The translations under genes and the position numbers were made by a program. This document shows positions 10,947 to 17,409 of a stretch of DNA of 64,000 nt, in pieces. This DNA is from Erythrobacter sp. SD-21 (GTDB lineage Bacteria; Pseudomonadota; Alphaproteobacteria; Sphingomonadales; Sphingomonadaceae), in assembly GCF_000181515.1 (NCBI RefSeq), contig NZ_ABCG01000001.1, positions 434,001 to 498,000 on the forward strand, read 5' to 3'. How positions within the stretch are numbered: the stretch's first letter is position 1; each line of letters begins with the position of its first letter. The notes under the pieces were generated by a model. That model was not told the origin of the DNA, ran no database searches, and saw only the letters and a list, made by a program, of their open reading frames with translations.

Positions 10947-12317
10947 TCAACCCGCTTCTTTGGAGCCAGCTGGGACTGACAAAGTGAAGCGAGCACCCTG
11001 ACCGGGAGCGCTTTCCACCGTCAGGTCGCCGCCCATGGCCCGCGCTATCCGGCGCGAGATGTAGAGGCCGAGACCCGATCCGCCGTCTTCTCCGCGGCCG
11101 AGGCGTTCGAATTTCTCGAACACCTTCTCCTGTTGCTCCTCATCGAGCCCATAGCCCTGATCGGCGACGGTAATCGTCGCCCGCTCGCCAATCTCGTCGA
11201 GCCTAATCCAGACGCGGCTCTTTTCCGGCGAATAGCGGATGGCGTTGCCGATAAGGTTGAGCAGGACCTGCAGGACCCGTCTGAACTCGGCGACGGCTAG
11301 TTGGCTTTCACCCTCGGGCGGAGGATCGAGCGTAATGTCGCGTTCGGCAGCGCGCACACCGAGGATGCCGCAGGCGCGCCGCGCAACATCGGCAAGGTCG
11401 ATGTGGTCGGGAGCGGTGGAAAAGTCCTCCGCTTCCACCACTTCGAGATCCGCCAAATCGTCGATCAGCCCGAGAAGGTGCTGGCCTGCGCTCGCGATAT
11501 CGGCGGCATATTCGCTGTATTCGTCCTTGAGCGGGCCTGCGAGCTTGGTGCGGATTGTTTCCGCGTTGGCGATGATCCTGTTGACCGGCTGCCTGAGCAC
11601 CGGGGTTAGATCGCGTCCGAGTGATGGTGTGCGAGCCGCTGCCTGGCCGATAGCCCTGAGCGGTTCGTTTGCGCTCAGGTGCAGAACGAAACCTGCGCTT
11701 CCCGGTTCTGGCTGGCCCAGCGGCTCGAGAAATGCCGTCCATTGCCGCTTTGATCCGGCCATCCGGCATGCCGCACCGTCGAGCAGGCGCCAGTGAGCTG
11801 GCTGTTCGAGGACATTACCGGTCAGTGTGACGAAATCTGTCCACGGTCGCCCGATCCCCTTCGCCGCAATGCCGACGAATTCGACGAGGTCGGGAGCGTC
11901 GCTCTCTATTGAAAGGATGCGCTGGCCCGGGTCGAGCCGCGCCGTGCACTCGGCCAGATGGCGATTGATTTCGGTCTGTCGCTGGGCTGCTTTCGTTTCG
12001 GCTTCCGGGGCGACGTCCTCCACCTGCCAGTTCGAAATAGCGATCTCGCATCCTGCGGCTTCGTCGAATCCAGGCGAGATGTCGGCCCAGGCGGTTACGC
12101 GCTCGTGGTCTTGGCTTGCGCTGAACTGGCGCGAAAGACGCAGACCGTACTCACGCGCCTTTACGACGAGGGCAAGCAATTCGGGAATGGCCAGGGTTTG
12201 TCCGAGTTCCCCTCCGCAGGCGCGGTTGAGCACTCCAAGCCTGTCATCGGCCTCGATAAGGCGATGCTCGTCGTCAGTCAGGCCGCGAGCGATATAGTGT
12301 GTGGCGACGCTGCTCAC
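10947..12317 (-). CDS. Histidine-kinase-like protein lacking the phospho-acceptor His
   Basis: A 456-residue protein with PAS-like input regions (roughly 1-220), a dimerisation region and a C-terminal HATPase domain. The ATPase domain looks intact: N box LIGNAIRYS, G1 DQGYGLDEEQQ, F box VFEKFERLG and G2 GGSGLGLYIS. The H box reads LTPVLRQPVNRII (237-249), aligning position for position with the usual LSHELRTPLNAII but with Pro239 (codon at 11601-11603) where His should be. It cannot autophosphorylate at the usual site. No membrane segment is obvious. The GTG start overlaps the stop of the preceding gene, implying coupling. It may be a pseudokinase sensor or an ATP-dependent regulator. Confidence 0.85.
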   Translation of the reverse strand: MSSVATHYIARGLTDDEHRLIEADDRLGVLNRACGGELGQTLAIPELLALVVKAREYGLRLSRQFSASQDHERVTAWADISPGFDEAAGCEIAISNWQVEDVAPEAETKAAQRQTEINRHLAECTARLDPGQRILSIESDAPDLVEFVGIAAKGIGRPWTDFVTLTGNVLEQPAHWRLLDGAACRMAGSKRQWTAFLEPLGQPEPGSAGFVLHLSANEPLRAIGQAAARTPSLGRDLTPVLRQPVNRIIANAETIRTKLAGPLKDEYSEYAADIASAGQHLLGLIDDLADLEVVEAEDFSTAPDHIDLADVARRACGILGVRAAERDITLDPPPEGESQLAVAEFRRVLQVLLNLIGNAIRYSPEKSRVWIRLDEIGERATITVADQGYGLDEEQQEKVFEKFERLGRGEDGGSGLGLYISRRIARAMGGDLTVESAPGQGARFTLSVPAGSKEAG

Positions 12318-13279
12318 GCGCCGCGCTCCAGAACCTGGACAGCGTCCAGCAACATGCCGCGCGCCGCGTCCTCATCGATGTCTTCAAGGCCAGCGAACGG
12401 AGCAGCGCCCGGATGCAGACGGAGGAGCAATTCGTCGATCCGCCTTGGTTCGATCCCGGACGCCCGTAGGCCAAGCGCGAGCCGTACGGTCTGACGCGCA
12501 TGGCTCGACAGGACGGCGAACTCGCGCGGCTGTCCGGAGTGGACCGACAGCGCGCTGAAGAACAGGCCGGCCCCTGCCTTGTCGAGCAGGAGGGCACTGC
12601 GAGCACCCGGCCCCGCGACAAGTCGGGCGAAAAGGGCGAGCCTTCCCGCGCTCTCGTCGTAGGCATGTCGCATCTTGCTCTCGGCACGGTCGACGGCCTC
12701 GCTGGAAGTTTCTCCGCAATAGCGGCGCCATGCGCGCAGTGTTTTGTGCAAGAGGTCTCCGGGCAGTTCGTTGAGCGGCAATTCCATGCGCCGTTGGGAC
12801 TGTGTGAATCGCGCTTGCGCTGCGAGGGCGGCCATCGCGCTGCTGGAAGTCGCGCTCTCGTCATCGGCAATCATTTTCTGAAGCAGGGGCGAAAGTACGG
12901 GGTCGAGACCGTTCTCGGCCTCCAGTCTTTCGGTCAGCTGCCATTCCAGTGCCAAGGCATGGCAATGGGCGAGAAGCGCCGGAGATGCCTGGAAATGTTC
13001 GGACAGAGCGGCTCCGTGGCGCTCGACGAAAGCATCGCGGCCTGTTTGCCCGGTGGCTTCCGCCTGCATCCGCAAAACCTGTCGCGCAAGGTGGGCCAGC
13101 ATTCCGCGGACCCGGGCGACGATTTCGTCGCTGAAGAGCGAATAGTCGGGTGCCGATAGCAAGTGACCGAGAATGGGGCCCACGCCAGCCAGCATCGCGT
13201 CGCCTCGCGCCAGTTCCAGGCGCAAGGTTTCGCTAGCCGCGCGAGCAGTGTCGTTCGAGGCGTGAGCTCGGTCCATCAT
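12314..13279 (-). CDS. Uncharacterised protein in operon with a kinase-like gene
   Basis: A 321-residue, mostly helical, Ala/Leu/Arg-rich soluble protein that I do not recognise. I see no signal peptide, membrane segment, cofactor motif or known catalytic signature. Its stop overlaps the GTG start of the kinase-like gene by 4 bases and it follows the fusion-protein gene by about 30 bases, so the three probably form one operon. No clear Shine-Dalgarno is visible; ATG codons at 13279 and 13276 and a GTG at 13282 are all possible starts. A helical partner or regulator of the kinase-like protein is a guess. Confidence 0.7.
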   Translation of the reverse strand: MMDRAHASNDTARAASETLRLELARGDAMLAGVGPILGHLLSAPDYSLFSDEIVARVRGMLAHLARQVLRMQAEATGQTGRDAFVERHGAALSEHFQASPALLAHCHALALEWQLTERLEAENGLDPVLSPLLQKMIADDESATSSSAMAALAAQARFTQSQRRMELPLNELPGDLLHKTLRAWRRYCGETSSEAVDRAESKMRHAYDESAGRLALFARLVAGPGARSALLLDKAGAGLFFSALSVHSGQPREFAVLSSHARQTVRLALGLRASGIEPRRIDELLLRLHPGAAPFAGLEDIDEDAARGMLLDAVQVLERGA

Positions 13280-13311
13280 CACGGATTTAGTGGGCTGTGG
13301 TTAATTCGCCG

Positions 13312-14490
13312 TTAGTCGCCGCGAAGGGTGGGAAAGAAGCGCGTCGCGAGCACCAAGAGGGCAATGGCTGCTGCCATTTCGGTCGAAAATCCCAAGAAAG
13401 CGGCTGGGGCAAGGAGGACGCCCAGAAGGATGCGGTCGGCATAGGTCGCCCGCCACTTCTTGCTGGAATAATTTTCACCGAGGCGAAGCAGGCCGAAGAG
13501 CACCAGGGGAACGAAGGCGCGCAGGAATCCGAATTCTTTAGGTGCGGAAATGGTCAGCAGGAGGATGAAAACCGGATCGATGGCGTGACCTAGCAGGCGG
13601 TGGAGCAGGCCGTGATTGGTCTTCGGCCTGCTGAGCTGCGCGACCCGATCGACCACACCTGCCATATGGCCGAACAGCGCAGCGAGACCGGTCATTGCAA
13701 TACCGGCGGCCGGAAAGCCGAACGCCGCAAGTCCCAGGGCCGTGATCACGGAGGCCATGGCTGCCAGGATCGGGACCGATTCTGCGGATTGGCCGAGGAT
13801 ATCGCGCGCAAGTCGTGCCCCCGCCCTTTCGGCGACGGCAAGTCCGGGCGCGCGGAAGGCGATCTTGCGACGCTGCGCATCGATCCAGCGCTTCTCGCGC
13901 GCATCGAGCTCCGCGCGGTCGGCATCTATATGCCAGTGCCCCTCACTCAACAGATCGCGATCCAGGTGGCGGATCGGACTGCCCGATTGCAGCGAAAGCC
14001 GCATCAAGGTGCTCGGGACATCTACGTCGCCCGGCAACTCCGCGAGCCGCTCGACGATCCTTCCCGGGACCAGCATCACCCCGCCCCACGCCAGTTCGAG
14101 ATCGATCCTCTCATAGCCGAGCGGCACTGCGGTATCTGCCGGAAATGCCAGCACGCCTTTGCCGGTGAGAGTTTCTTCCACTTCGGCATCGTCCGGCAAG
14201 ACACCCGGAGCGACCACGAACAGCTCGTCGTCAGCGGTCACCATTCCAGACAGGCGCGATGGGTGCCGGATAGCCCGGAACTTTATCCCGGCACTTTCCG
14301 CGCGACCCTGGAGTTCGACCACCTCTCGCTCGACCGCATCGACAAGGCAGGCCACCCGCTCACAGCCAAGCTTTATTGCAAGGTCCAGCTGTCGCTCCAC
14401 CACCATCGCGCCTGCAAACGCTGCGAAGGCTGGGCGCACAGTTCCCGGCTTGGGAGCGCAGTCCAACGTTGACAGCAAGGCGATGCGCAC
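13312..14490 (-). CDS. Nucleotidyltransferase-like/CDP-alcohol transferase-like fusion, apparently inactive
   Basis: A 392-residue protein with a GTG start. Residues 1-200 look like a nucleotidyltransferase-type alpha/beta fold, without a clear GxGxR loop. Residues about 225-390 are a membrane domain with several hydrophobic helices. The layout recalls bifunctional inositol-1-phosphate cytidylyltransferase/DIPP synthases. The stretch GHMAGVVDRVAQL falls where a CDP-alcohol phosphotransferase motif (DG..AR........G...D...D) would be, but the expected aspartates are missing. This assignment comes from eye alignment only. It leads the three-gene operon and is divergent from the TipN-like gene. 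Confidence 0.55.
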   Translation of the reverse strand: MRIALLSTLDCAPKPGTVRPAFAAFAGAMVVERQLDLAIKLGCERVACLVDAVEREVVELQGRAESAGIKFRAIRHPSRLSGMVTADDELFVVAPGVLPDDAEVEETLTGKGVLAFPADTAVPLGYERIDLELAWGGVMLVPGRIVERLAELPGDVDVPSTLMRLSLQSGSPIRHLDRDLLSEGHWHIDADRAELDAREKRWIDAQRRKIAFRAPGLAVAERAGARLARDILGQSAESVPILAAMASVITALGLAAFGFPAAGIAMTGLAALFGHMAGVVDRVAQLSRPKTNHGLLHRLLGHAIDPVFILLLTISAPKEFGFLRAFVPLVLFGLLRLGENYSSKKWRATYADRILLGVLLAPAAFLGFSTEMAAAIALLVLATRFFPTLRGD

Positions 14491-14691: not shown

Positions 14692-17409
14692 ATGAGAAAA
14701 CGCTCGCATATCACTGTCGTCGAAGGCGAAAACGAGACTAACGAGGGAGCCGAACAGCTTCCCGTCACCGGAACCGAGCCCGTTGAGGAGCCGGAAAGTG
14801 TCGAAAGCTACGACGAAGAAGAGTGGTTCGAGACAGAACCGACGGCCCACAGCCGTGGATGGCTGGTTCCGTCTGTAGCGTTCCTGGCTATTGCAGGATG
14901 GACCGGTTTCTTCCTGTGGGCGAACGGTGCCGCAATGCAAGCGGGCGCCAGTGCGCATGACTGGTCGGGCTGGATCGTAAACTGGTCGGTGCCGGTCCTG
15001 CTCGTCGTGGCACTCTGGATCCTTGCTTCGCGAAATTCCACCCGTGAAACGATCCGTTACGGCGAAGTCGCGCGCTCGCTTTCCGAAGAGTCGGCACTTC
15101 TCGAACGGCGTCTTGTCACCGTTAATCGCGAACTTAGCCTTGCCCGTGAGTTTCTCGGCAACCAGTCGCGCGACCTCGAATACCTCGGCCGCAGCGCTTC
15201 GGAGAAAATTTCCGAACATGCGGACAGGCTGCAGGGCCTGATCCGCAACAATGGCGAGCAGGTAGATGCTATTGCCGGAACGAGCACTGCCGCGCTCGAG
15301 AACATGGAAAAGCTGCGCGACAATCTTCCCGTCATTGCCAATTCGGCGCGCGACGTTTCCAACCAAATCGGAGGTGCGGGACGCACGGCCCAGGACCAGC
15401 TCGGAGCGTTGGTCGCCGGGTTCGAGAGGCTTAACGAATTCGGAGAGGCGAGCGAGCGTCAGGTCGGCTCGCTCAGAAAGCGGGTGGATGAAGCCTTGGC
15501 CGCTTTCACTGCACAGTCCGAAGAACTCGAAGCCATCGTCACCAACCGTTTCGCGACCCTGGCCGACGGCAGCGAAGCCATTCGAAAAGATTTGCAAGCA
15601 CAGGAAATCGAGGCTCTTGCCGCCTTGCGCGCTCGCAGCATGGCGTTGCGCAGCGAACTCGCGGAAGCGCACGCCGCCGCCGGCGAAGAAGAAGAACAAG
15701 CGCTCGCGGCGTTGCGCGCCAACCGTGTAGCGCTCCGCAGCGAATTGGCAGAAGCCCATGCTGCGGCCGTCGAAGAAGAAGAGCAGGCGCTCGACGCAAT
15801 GCGTGTCCGCGTGAACGCGCTGCGCGACGAGGCCGCCGGCATCGCACAATCCGTGCGCGACGGAGAAGATACCGCCCTCGGAGCTTGGGGTTCGCAGGTC
15901 GAGGCGATGAAAAAGCGGCTGGAAGACGCCGTATCGCAAATCAAGGACATCGACGAAGCTGCGCTCGACGCAGCGAACGCGAAACTCCTAGCGCTTTCCG
16001 AGGAAGCGAATGCCGTCGATGGCCGCATCACCGAGCGCAACCGGATTTTCGAGGCGGAAACGCTCCGTCGCGTCGAAGCCCTGTCTACCGCCCAGGAAGA
16101 AATCGCCCTGGCACTTGAAGGGCATATGGCTGCACTCGATGACGCCATCGCTCAGCGCCGCGAGAAGCAACGCGAACAACTCGAAAGTCTTGCCAGCGAT
16201 AGCGAAGTCCTCGGGGAGCGCATCGGCTCGCTTTCGACGACCTTTAGCACCATTGCCGCCCAAGGGCACGAAGCTCGCGAAACGCTTGCCGGAGGGATCG
16301 ATGCCCTCGTTGCGCAACTCCGCAGCAGCCGCGAGGCGCTCGACGGAACCGATCAGGACCTTGCCCGACTTACCGACGCAAGCGTGCGCCTTCTCGAACT
16401 TATCCAGGCCAGCGCCAAGCAGAGCGCCGACACATTGCCCAAGGCCATGGAAGCCTCCGAAGCGAGACTCGCCGAAATCGAGCGCCGCGCCGGGGAAGTA
16501 CACACTCTGCTCGACCAGGCTCGTCTCACCGGAGAAACTCTGTCCGAGGGCATGGTCACAATCGAGGACCGGACCCGCACTGCGATGGAAGGCTTCGACG
16601 CCTTCCATCAGGACTTCGAGGGGACATCGGCACGCCGGATCGACAGCGTGGAACAGCTCCGCGCCAGCCTCGCTGGCCTTTCAAGCGACAGCCAGGCCCT
16701 TGCAGAACAGGTCCAGGGGGAATTGCGGGACGCGATCTCCACTCTCGAAGAAAAGGCTCGCCACGCTCTCGCTGCAATAGAGGACGAACAGGCTGGAAAG
16801 GTCGCGCATATCGCGGACACGATCAGCGAACGGAGCGTCGAACATATCAAGGCGGCACTGGCCGAGCGGACCGAAACCGCTCTTGCCGATCTTGATGAGG
16901 CCCGCACGCGGTCCAATGAGTCTGCCCGCGAGATGACCCAGAACCTGCGCGACCAGCTGGGCCGCTTAAACGAGCTAACCCTGAATCTGGAATCGCGAAT
17001 TGCAAGCGCTCGTGAACAGTCGACCGACAATGTCGATGGCGATTTCGCGCGGCGCGTGGCTCTGATAACGGAAAGCCTGAATTCAAGCTCGATCGATATC
17101 GCCAAGGCTCTATCGAGCGAAGTGACCGACACCGCCTGGGCCAGCTACCTGCGCGGCGACCGCGGCATCTTCACCCGCCGGGCCGTCAGGCTGCTCGACA
17201 ATTCCGAGGCGCGCGAAATCGCTGAGCTTTACGACAGCGACAGCGACTTCCGCGAACATGTGAACCGGTACATCCATGACTTCGAGGCGATGCTGCGCTC
17301 GGTGCTTGCGACCCGTGACGGCAATGCCGTCAGCGTGACGCTGCTTTCGAGCGACATGGGCAAGCTTTATGTGGTCCTTGCGCAGGCGCTGGAACGCCTC
17401 CGGCAGTAG
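14692..17409 (+). CDS. Membrane-anchored long coiled-coil protein, TipN-like
   Basis: A 905-residue protein with an acidic N-terminus, two transmembrane helices (about 57-78 and 94-112), then about 690 residues of Ala/Glu/Leu/Arg-rich coiled coil and a compact C-terminal segment (SYLRGDRGIFTRRAVRLLD ... LLSSDMGKLYVVLAQALE). This architecture and length resemble Caulobacter TipN, which marks the new cell pole and helps place the division plane and flagellum. Residues 308-394 hold three 29-residue tandem repeats. Polarity scaffolding is inferred from architecture and C-terminal resemblance; other large coiled-coil membrane proteins cannot be excluded. It ends one base before the convergent DUF1467 gene. 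Confidence 0.6.
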   Translation: MRKRSHITVVEGENETNEGAEQLPVTGTEPVEEPESVESYDEEEWFETEPTAHSRGWLVPSVAFLAIAGWTGFFLWANGAAMQAGASAHDWSGWIVNWSVPVLLVVALWILASRNSTRETIRYGEVARSLSEESALLERRLVTVNRELSLAREFLGNQSRDLEYLGRSASEKISEHADRLQGLIRNNGEQVDAIAGTSTAALENMEKLRDNLPVIANSARDVSNQIGGAGRTAQDQLGALVAGFERLNEFGEASERQVGSLRKRVDEALAAFTAQSEELEAIVTNRFATLADGSEAIRKDLQAQEIEALAALRARSMALRSELAEAHAAAGEEEEQALAALRANRVALRSELAEAHAAAVEEEEQALDAMRVRVNALRDEAAGIAQSVRDGEDTALGAWGSQVEAMKKRLEDAVSQIKDIDEAALDAANAKLLALSEEANAVDGRITERNRIFEAETLRRVEALSTAQEEIALALEGHMAALDDAIAQRREKQREQLESLASDSEVLGERIGSLSTTFSTIAAQGHEARETLAGGIDALVAQLRSSREALDGTDQDLARLTDASVRLLELIQASAKQSADTLPKAMEASEARLAEIERRAGEVHTLLDQARLTGETLSEGMVTIEDRTRTAMEGFDAFHQDFEGTSARRIDSVEQLRASLAGLSSDSQALAEQVQGELRDAISTLEEKARHALAAIEDEQAGKVAHIADTISERSVEHIKAALAERTETALADLDEARTRSNESAREMTQNLRDQLGRLNELTLNLESRIASAREQSTDNVDGDFARRVALITESLNSSSIDIAKALSSEVTDTAWASYLRGDRGIFTRRAVRLLDNSEAREIAELYDSDSDFREHVNRYIHDFEAMLRSVLATRDGNAVSVTLLSSDMGKLYVVLAQALERLRQ
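15613..15873 (+). repeat. Three tandem 87-base (29-residue) repeats in the coiled-coil gene
   Basis: Units at 15613-15699, 15700-15786 and 15787-15873 encode ALAALRARSMALRSELAEAH..., ALAALRANRVALRSELAEAH... and a diverged ALDAMRVRVNALRDE... copy. The first two are near-identical in protein and similar in DNA, suggesting recent in-frame duplication that lengthened the coiled coil. Confidence 0.85.

Follow-up and report, generated by a model that had tools for sequence, protein, structure and literature searches.

A fused nucleotidyltransferase-like and CDP-alcohol phosphotransferase-like protein of sphingomonads as a probable repurposed double pseudoenzyme

This locus raises the question of what becomes of a protein built like a bifunctional enzyme of inositol-phosphate synthesis when the catalytic residues of both of its halves are gone. 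The protein (392 aa) is encoded at 13312..14490 on the minus strand of the window, i.e., the whole 64,000-nucleotide stretch of the Erythrobacter sp. SD-21 genome (G000, 2.97 Mb) analyzed in this study. Its open reading frame, homologues, a profile match, and structural re-alignment characterize it as a fused pseudo-nucleotidyltransferase (NT)/pseudo-CDP-alcohol phosphotransferase (CDP-AP).

Gene, locus, and distribution

The frame opens with a GTG codon, and the start residue is the same in five named close relatives. Homologues were present in 131 of the 149 genomes sampled from one family (code f1), which is wider than the Erythrobacteraceae and which we take to be the Sphingomonadaceae of GTDB. 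This distribution, together with the shared start residue, indicates that the frame codes for a real protein. The best match was an open frame without stops in all 131 genomes, and the sole match containing stops was a weak second match in G139. The nearest named relatives were Qipengyuania/Erythrobacter (52-70% identity in the fused protein; Qipengyuania is classed by NCBI in Erythrobacteraceae, Sphingomonadales), and identity to two genomes of the same genus was 46 and 47%, i.e., a fast divergence.

The protein set comprised 136 members (131 family genomes and the five named relatives) after L002, an ordinary CDP-AP, was removed from 137 profile matches, and addition of extra loci, some of them from other families, enlarged it to 160 members. 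Nine of the 18 family genomes without a first match were inspected: the gene was present in G051, G090, G040, G113, and G140, and inspection of the locus showed that it is absent there in G006, G100, G064, and G025. G022 was inspected on one 5.5-kb contig only. The copies of G113 and G140, both intact, had been missed by the window-protein query and were found later. The gene is dispensable in some lineages.

The fused gene is the first of three minus-strand genes. It is followed, after a gap of 29 nt, by a gene for a DUF2336-like protein of 322 aa (12314..13282, minus strand), which overlaps by 4 nt with a gene for a histidine-kinase-like protein of 456 aa (10947..12317, minus strand). On the other side, 201 nt away, a divergent gene (14692..17409, plus strand) encodes a protein of 905 aa with two N-terminal hydrophobic stretches, an apolipoprotein-like coiled coil, and a conserved C-terminal domain (16999-17406, plus strand). 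The recurring order is gltA (forward), the kinase, 322-aa, and fused genes (all reverse), the coiled-coil gene (forward), and DUF1467 and RNase J (both reverse). The fetched loci were about 11 kb each, so that some are cut, and locus counts are given for the 123 loci of at least 6 kb. Among these, tblastn matched gltA in 96, the kinase in 101, the coiled-coil gene in 113, and RNase J in 93.

The sequence-only reading had described the fused gene as operonic with a dead kinase, and this holds by sequence: besides the tight spacing, P239 stands in place of the phospho-acceptor His, the ATP-binding boxes are intact, and the protein has no hydrophobic stretch. The His was absent in 105 of 112 kinase homologues of the fetched loci (Pro in 66), and the ATP-site residues were kept in 110-112 of the 112. 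Five kinases retained the canonical SHELRTPL (G040, G012, G052, G056, and G085), and those of L060 and L061 have His in a divergent box. The 112 kinases include loci fetched for the kinase itself (L158, L159, L160, L169, and L232), of which L169 and L232 have it on contigs other than that of the fused gene. No paper on a His-less Novosphingobium kinase was found in our search.

The 322-aa protein alone matched neither DUF2336 nor SpbR. When profiles were iterated, the 322-aa protein and a DUF2336 protein (L042) as starting points led to the same 104 ORFs, and the L042 protein matched DUF2336, with SpbR below the cut-off. To judge by a title cited in PMC12700997, SpbR concerns cell-pole development in Caulobacter; our literature search found no paper on DUF2336. 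The C-terminal domain of the coiled-coil protein was detected in 53 of 142 genomes of the class, in frames of 266 to 2418 aa, and often ends long frames. The apolipoprotein-like match of the 905-aa protein was below the cut-off, and its resemblance to Agrobacterium GPR, as portrayed in part of PMC8262873, is one of layout alone.

Five genomes keep the fused gene without the kinase and DUF2336-like genes at the locus, and three keep that pair without the fused gene. This loss on each side contradicts the idea that kinase and fused protein are obligate partners. The coiled-coil gene was considered as the true partner, since it is adjacent in eight rearranged loci; this is weakened by nine loci that have the kinase match only. 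The coiled-coil gene occurs without the kinase in 21 loci and the kinase without the coiled-coil gene in nine.

Fold and lost active sites

The window protein alone gave no match in Pfam (E up to 10), NCBIfam, or PDB sequences, and stays below the gathering cut-off of PF01066 (22 bits), which two intact relatives exceed at 41.1 and 35.0 bits. A profile of 38 motif-less ("dead") relatives had as its first match 4MND, a bifunctional IPCT-DIPPS (E 6e-6), with an alignment that spans the linker and the CDP-AP helices; the runner-up (E 0.03) was a low-complexity match. The 38 members, all on the window's side of the family, were drawn from 128 dead proteins after 68 diverse ones had been picked; the more motif-like dead members of the family's other side were left out. 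Pfam scans of each of the 38 returned no CDP-AP match and three weak matches to NTP_transf_3 (best 0.011), and the MobA-like PF12804 appeared below threshold in some relatives only. A profile of eight intact relatives matched AF2299 (1e-12), 4MND, and PIP synthases. Dead and intact profiles were matched by hhalign at 99.7%, over the NT half and the first helices and not over the motif.

Structure prediction agreed with the profiles, at low model confidence (full-length AF2 model from six sequences, pLDDT 57; model of residues 191-392, pLDDT 60). Foldseek on the full-length model gave no significant match (4o6m at rank 4, E 0.77). VIA-align, which is a re-alignment of Foldseek's top 1000 and not an independent search, placed CDP-APs in all eleven best rows for this low-confidence model. 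4MND came first (Z 10.6, 222 residues, rmsd 16.9, the two domains being differently placed), AF2299 reached Z 10.1, and single-domain rows had Z 8.3-10.0 over 142-160 residues (rmsd 4.3-6.2). The re-aligner warns that helical bundles with Z under about 13 may be chance matches, and the assignment of the CDP-AP fold therefore rests on the agreement of VIA-align with the sequence profile. The model of residues 191-392 was likewise re-aligned, within 300 chains whose rank 1 and many further rows are unrelated short helical matches, to 4MND (Z 9.5, 147 residues) and other CDP-APs over 129-159 residues; among the matches listed, the rows with more than 120 aligned residues are CDP-APs. In the full-length low-confidence model, which begins at residue 2, helices are predicted at 234-256, 260-287, 294-315, 323-341, 347-366, and 369-385, i.e., the six that are expected. 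The C-terminal half (residues 191-392; 13315..13920, minus strand) is hence described as a CDP-AP-like membrane domain, with a juxtamembrane helix followed by six helices, a predicted fold that is reached by convergence of methods rather than by any single one.

For the N-terminal half (residues 1-190, end approximate; 13921..14490, minus strand), VIA-align rows on model residues 1-174 (Z 6.4 to 8.2) were mostly nucleotidyltransferases, the best being a GMPPA/GMPPB complex chain; short-chain dehydrogenases, shikimate dehydrogenases, and glucuronyltransferases were interspersed among them. An NT domain followed by a CDP-AP domain in one chain is the predicted architecture, in which the NT half is placed by structural re-alignment. 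The order proposed from the letters alone, NT-like and then CDP-AP-like, is borne out by the 4MND profile match and the re-alignments. The profile search and structure prediction against DIPPS that had been suggested as a check put 4MND on top in both, with low-confidence models. The suspected likeness to enzymes of inositol-phosphate synthesis is supported by this first match and by the gene cluster in which the intact relatives stand.

The CDP-AP motif, in the form quoted in a passage of PMC9246714, is D1xxD2GxxAR...GxxxD3xxxD4. In the window protein, GHMAGVVDRVAQL occupies the D1xxD2GxxAR position (13645..13671, minus strand; now G274-HM-A277-G278-VV-D281-R282), where both Asp are gone and G278 and R282 are retained. 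The D3xxxD4 site (13588..13602, minus strand), as located by the alignments, now reads H297-RLL-G301. All four acids are consequently replaced, by G274, A277, H297, and G301, and the lost motif falls on the second and third predicted helices. The HMMER alignment of the motif-less profile with 4MND gave the same places for D2, D3, and D4, with D1 one residue earlier (F273); because the places are nearly identical, the motif register is not the product of one alignment. The sequence-only reading, which had located a segment at the motif position without the aspartates, was correct, the second pair being replaced as well. An intact motif elsewhere in the chain, which would have spoken against it, was sought and not found: no DxxD occurs anywhere in the 392 aa.

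Across the 136 family proteins, D..DG..AR was matched by eight. Acidic residues at the four positions numbered zero in 95, one in 32, and two in two of the 129 dead family members, and two in four, one in seven, and zero in one of 12 dead members of another family. The 18 intact members had four acidic residues in 17 cases and three in one, with E at D3 in all 18; "intact" here means by motif, enzymatic activity being predicted only. Intermediates, TPLDGIAERLARL (L087) and GPIDAIAGRIDLA (L088), align in the same motif columns.

The NT signature, G.G.R-x(3-14)-[PS]K, was found in none of the 160 members, including those with an intact CDP-AP site. A control protein, one stand-alone IPCT-like member of the pathway, did match it, and loose traces of the glycine-rich loop (G.G.R) were seen in 13 of the 160. 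Since the signature is missing even in intact CDP-AP members, the NT-like half was, as judged from sequence, probably non-catalytic before the CDP-AP half died. A CDP-AP fold without its defining motif is not filed here as a CDP-alcohol phosphotransferase, and we classify the protein as a pseudoenzyme derived from an IPCT-DIPPS-like fusion.

Ancestry in an inositol gene cluster and number of losses

An inositol-phosphate synthase gene adjoins all seven intact loci of at least 6 kb and none of the 116 other loci, and an eighth intact locus ends with its contig within such a gene. The window genome has no match to inositol-phosphate synthase (PF01658), which was found in 40 of 149 genomes. Two dead copies were later found beside the synthase gene, in G040 of the family and in G536 outside it, showing that motif and pathway need not be lost together. 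The proposal that a dead copy always goes with absence of the pathway was ruled out by G536, G040, and G623.

Most intact copies are found in the slot of the window gene, with the coiled-coil gene or RNase J as neighbour (L042, L052, L057, L059, L063, L067, L058, and L167), and the intact clusters of G072, G140, and G623 stand outside it. In G017 and G085 the full set reads gltA (forward), the kinase, DUF2336, IPCT-like, inositol-phosphate synthase (INO1), and fused genes (all reverse), and then a second CDP-AP gene and the coiled-coil gene (both forward). The IPCT-like protein matched the IPCT-DIPPS model in its IPCT part (E 5e-25, below the cut-off), and the INO1 protein matched TIGR03450 (E 5e-139, below the cut-off) and PF01658 (above it). 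The same combination of INO1, IPCT-like protein, fused NT-like/CDP-AP protein, and second CDP-AP was seen in the intact clusters L042 (G017), L067 (G085), and L063 (G038). These clusters are candidates for an unassigned inositol-lipid or inositol-phosphodiester pathway. In this regard, a passage of PMC9246714 reports an inositol-phosphate-type sphingolipid in Novosphingobium acidiphilum without the known clusters.

The number of losses was estimated from two trees, which disagree. In a single-gene tree of RNase J (84 tips, rooted with two class outgroups), the intact lineages branch off as a basal grade. The window lies in a crown of 58 tips, of which 57 are dead, and the sister of this crown is G017 (support 99). 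Dead G040/G052/G056 and dead G012 stand among the intact lineages, where supports are weak (33 for G012 and 71 for G085). Counting by eye, we read about five separate losses (the crown, G040/G052/G056, G012, G536, and G563). The computed minimum on the RNase J tree is four changes between intact and dead, calculated without G536 and G563, one of the four being the intact G623. In the protein tree, all 129 dead family members fall into a single clade, and three changes are required. This tree used 24 of 33 extra loci: L167, L171, L172, L173, L195, and L196 are from genomes already included, L170 matched in the CDP-AP part only, L200 is partly masked, and L199, a dead family member, was unused. 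We take the protein-tree grouping of the dead members to be partly long-branch attraction. A single loss of the motif was rejected since the RNase J tree scatters dead G040/G052/G056 and G012 among intact lineages.

Within the crown, G623 (L234 and L247) combines a dead copy in the resident position with an intact cluster at another site, the latter possibly acquired. In a genus of another family in the order (L184-L193, L197, and L198), the motif has decayed separately, next to a second CDP-AP that was kept. In G017, the CDP-AP site is intact yet the kinase is already His-less, so that on this branch the kinase probably changed first.

Selection, competing explanations, and known systems

Constraint has shifted towards the NT-like half in the dead proteins. 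The CDP-AP half was the more conserved in all 153 intact pairs (mean identity 0.52 vs. 0.30 for the NT half), as compared with 22 of 4116 dead pairs within family groups (3 of 2346 on the window's side and 19 of 1770 among the remaining family members) and 1 of 66 in the dead clade of a genus of another family; each dead family pair was taken within one of the two groups, and pairs share ancestry and are not independent. Where N-half identity was matched at 0.38, C-half identity came to 0.58 among intact pairs (n = 47) and to 0.21 among dead ones (n = 3009). In the closest pair, L034/L035, dN was 0.050 and dS 0.98 (dN/dS about 0.05), with 0.032/0.94 for the N half and 0.066/1.01 (ratio 0.065) for the C half; in the other pairs dS was saturated or not computable. 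These low ratios indicate that selection acts on both halves within the genus, and the value for the C half suggests that it may do more than anchor the protein.

The NT-like core (E127, R128, D130, W135, G137, L162, and R164; 13999..14112, minus strand) is kept, residue by residue, in 121-129 of the 129 motif-less family members. R164 was present in all 129, D130 in 127, and W135 in 121, vs. 10, 7, and 5 of the 11 intact family members. Given that D130 and W135 are rarer in intact than in dead members, constraint on the core seems to have tightened in the latter. In other families, none of the seven residues is kept in more than one of seven intact or three of 12 dead members, which marks the ERxD...WxG...LxR core as a feature of the sampled family. 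By its predicted position, the core would lie on the sugar-phosphate side of the NT fold and not on the NTP side. In the membrane half, D305, D352, and R353 (codons within 13432-13578) occur in 0.87, 0.93, and 0.87, respectively, of the 69 proteins on the window's side. The protein thus combines homology to enzymes, absence of the catalytic residues, and purifying selection, by which pseudoenzymes are recognized.

We favor, with a probability of roughly two in three, the reading that this is a repurposed double pseudoenzyme consisting of a membrane anchor and a non-catalytic NT-like binding domain, which would make it a tethered sensor or scaffold. Its ancestor would be the fused second-stage protein of a CDP-inositol-type pathway located in the slot between gltA and RNase J and comprising inositol-phosphate synthase, a separate cytidylyltransferase, the fused protein, and a second CDP-AP. 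In the family crown, the pathway genes would have left the locus and the fused protein would have lost its four metal/catalytic acids, with the gene staying in place. Selection would now mainly keep the cytosolic NT-like domain with its ERxD...WxG...LxR core, and the CDP-AP fold would serve as a (probably dimeric) membrane anchor. The NT-like domain may bind a ligand (a nucleotide, nucleotide-polyol, sugar, or polyol phosphate) or a partner protein without turnover, and a signal might pass at the membrane to the apolipoprotein-like scaffold, the DUF2336-like protein, and the His-less kinase, neighbours of a cell-pole/cell-cycle type that hint at a role at the cell pole. By analogy with GMPPA, which binds GDP-mannose, the protein may sense a nucleotide or polyol phosphate. 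The supported findings on ancestry, fold, motif loss, separate losses, selection, and shift of constraint carry this explanation. We put forward only tentatively its widest form, which is probably not right in full: that a CDP-inositol protein turned, several times and once for the crown, into a membrane-anchored NT-like sensor that forms a signalling or cell-pole module with the His-less kinase, the SpbR-like protein, and the apolipoprotein-like scaffold, and that represents a conserved pseudoenzyme lineage of the CDP-AP fold.

Other explanations were weighed against the same data. Within the three-gene operon, the protein might serve both as input module and as membrane anchor, tethering and controlling the soluble His-less kinase with the DUF2336-like protein. 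The 29-nt gap and 4-nt overlap, the kinase match in 101 of 123 loci, the lack of a hydrophobic stretch in the window kinase, the absence of the His in 105 of 112 homologues, and the precedent of DivL as a repurposed kinase (in the part of PMC4211667 that treats it) all fit such a module. Nevertheless, the fused gene is kept without the kinase pair in five genomes and the reverse holds in three, and the coiled-coil gene accompanies the fused gene slightly more often (113 of 123 loci); we regard this proposal, which may overlap with the double-pseudoenzyme reading, as rather improbable on its own. We consider it somewhat less probable still that the protein remains an enzyme with a new site on E127, R128, D130, and R164 or on membrane residues D305 and D352-R353. 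In favour of such a site, dead members hardly vary at the charged NT-like residues, many proteins on the window's side carry D305 and D352, and pseudoenzymes with migrated residues are known (as described in part of PMC10211241). However, E127, R128, and R164 are already present in 10 of the 11 intact family members and therefore did not replace a lost site, D305 and D352 belong mainly to the window's side (D352 at 0.32, and D305 less, in other dead members), and the NT signature is missing in 160 of 160.

That the C-terminal half is an unrelated membrane domain, with the motif register an accident of alignment, appears very unlikely. Such a view could draw on the missing Pfam and NCBIfam matches of the window protein, the low model confidence, the hhalign match that stops before the motif, and the ease with which helical bundles re-align, but the motif-less profile matches 4MND across the linker and the CDP-AP domain, CDP-APs cover most of the domain in the re-alignments of two separate models, and the graded intermediates L087 and L088 share the motif columns and the family shares the gene slot. 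Least credible of all is a decaying gene without function, which would be in keeping with the fast divergence (46 and 47% identity to two congeneric genomes), repeated motif losses, and some gene losses, and is contradicted by the selection data: open frames in 131 genomes, dN/dS of about 0.05 in the closest pair, and R164 in 129 of 129.

Taken together, the double-pseudoenzyme reading suggests a conversion from an enzyme to a regulatory or structural part. The CDP-AP fold is that of a large lipid-enzyme family, and we found no report of a catalytically dead CDP-AP lineage among the open-access papers listed by our searches, nor, in our literature search, a paper joining DIPPS, CDP-AP, and cytidylyltransferase. 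Intact, half-decayed, and dead copies stand mostly in one gene slot, so that successive stages of the departure from an enzyme can be traced. These results also point to a testable function for a gene kept by most of the sampled family genomes.

Among known systems, IPCT-DIPPS (4MND) shares with the pseudoenzyme the domain order, the linker, and the CDP-AP fold, and differs in that the pseudoenzyme has lost both active sites and belongs to a genome without an inositol-phosphate synthase match. The PF01066 enzymes (AF2299, PIP synthases, and PSS) share the six-helix domain, re-aligned over 129-160 residues, whereas in the pseudoenzyme the four acids of D1xxD2GxxAR...D3xxxD4 are replaced and no Pfam match is obtained. 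The operon kinase, and thus the neighbour gene only, resembles DivL in that the ATP site is kept and the phospho-acceptor lost, with Pro in the kinase. DivL has Tyr at the phospho-acceptor position. In a passage of PMC4211667, DivL of Caulobacter is described as having neither kinase nor phosphatase activity. GMPPA, a regulator of GMPPB that binds GDP-mannose according to an excerpt of PMC11228364, keeps a nucleotidyltransferase fold without catalysis, as is predicted for the pseudoenzyme; the latter may resemble it in function and differs from it in that it is fused to a membrane domain and lacks a known active partner. The alternative inositol-lipid cluster of Bacteroidetes, as outlined in part of Heaver et al. 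2022 (PMC9246714), contains inositol-phosphate synthase, a separate NTP transferase, and a CDP-AP, as do the intact clusters of the sphingomonad family, which, compared with that outline, add the fused NT-like/CDP-AP protein and a second CDP-AP.
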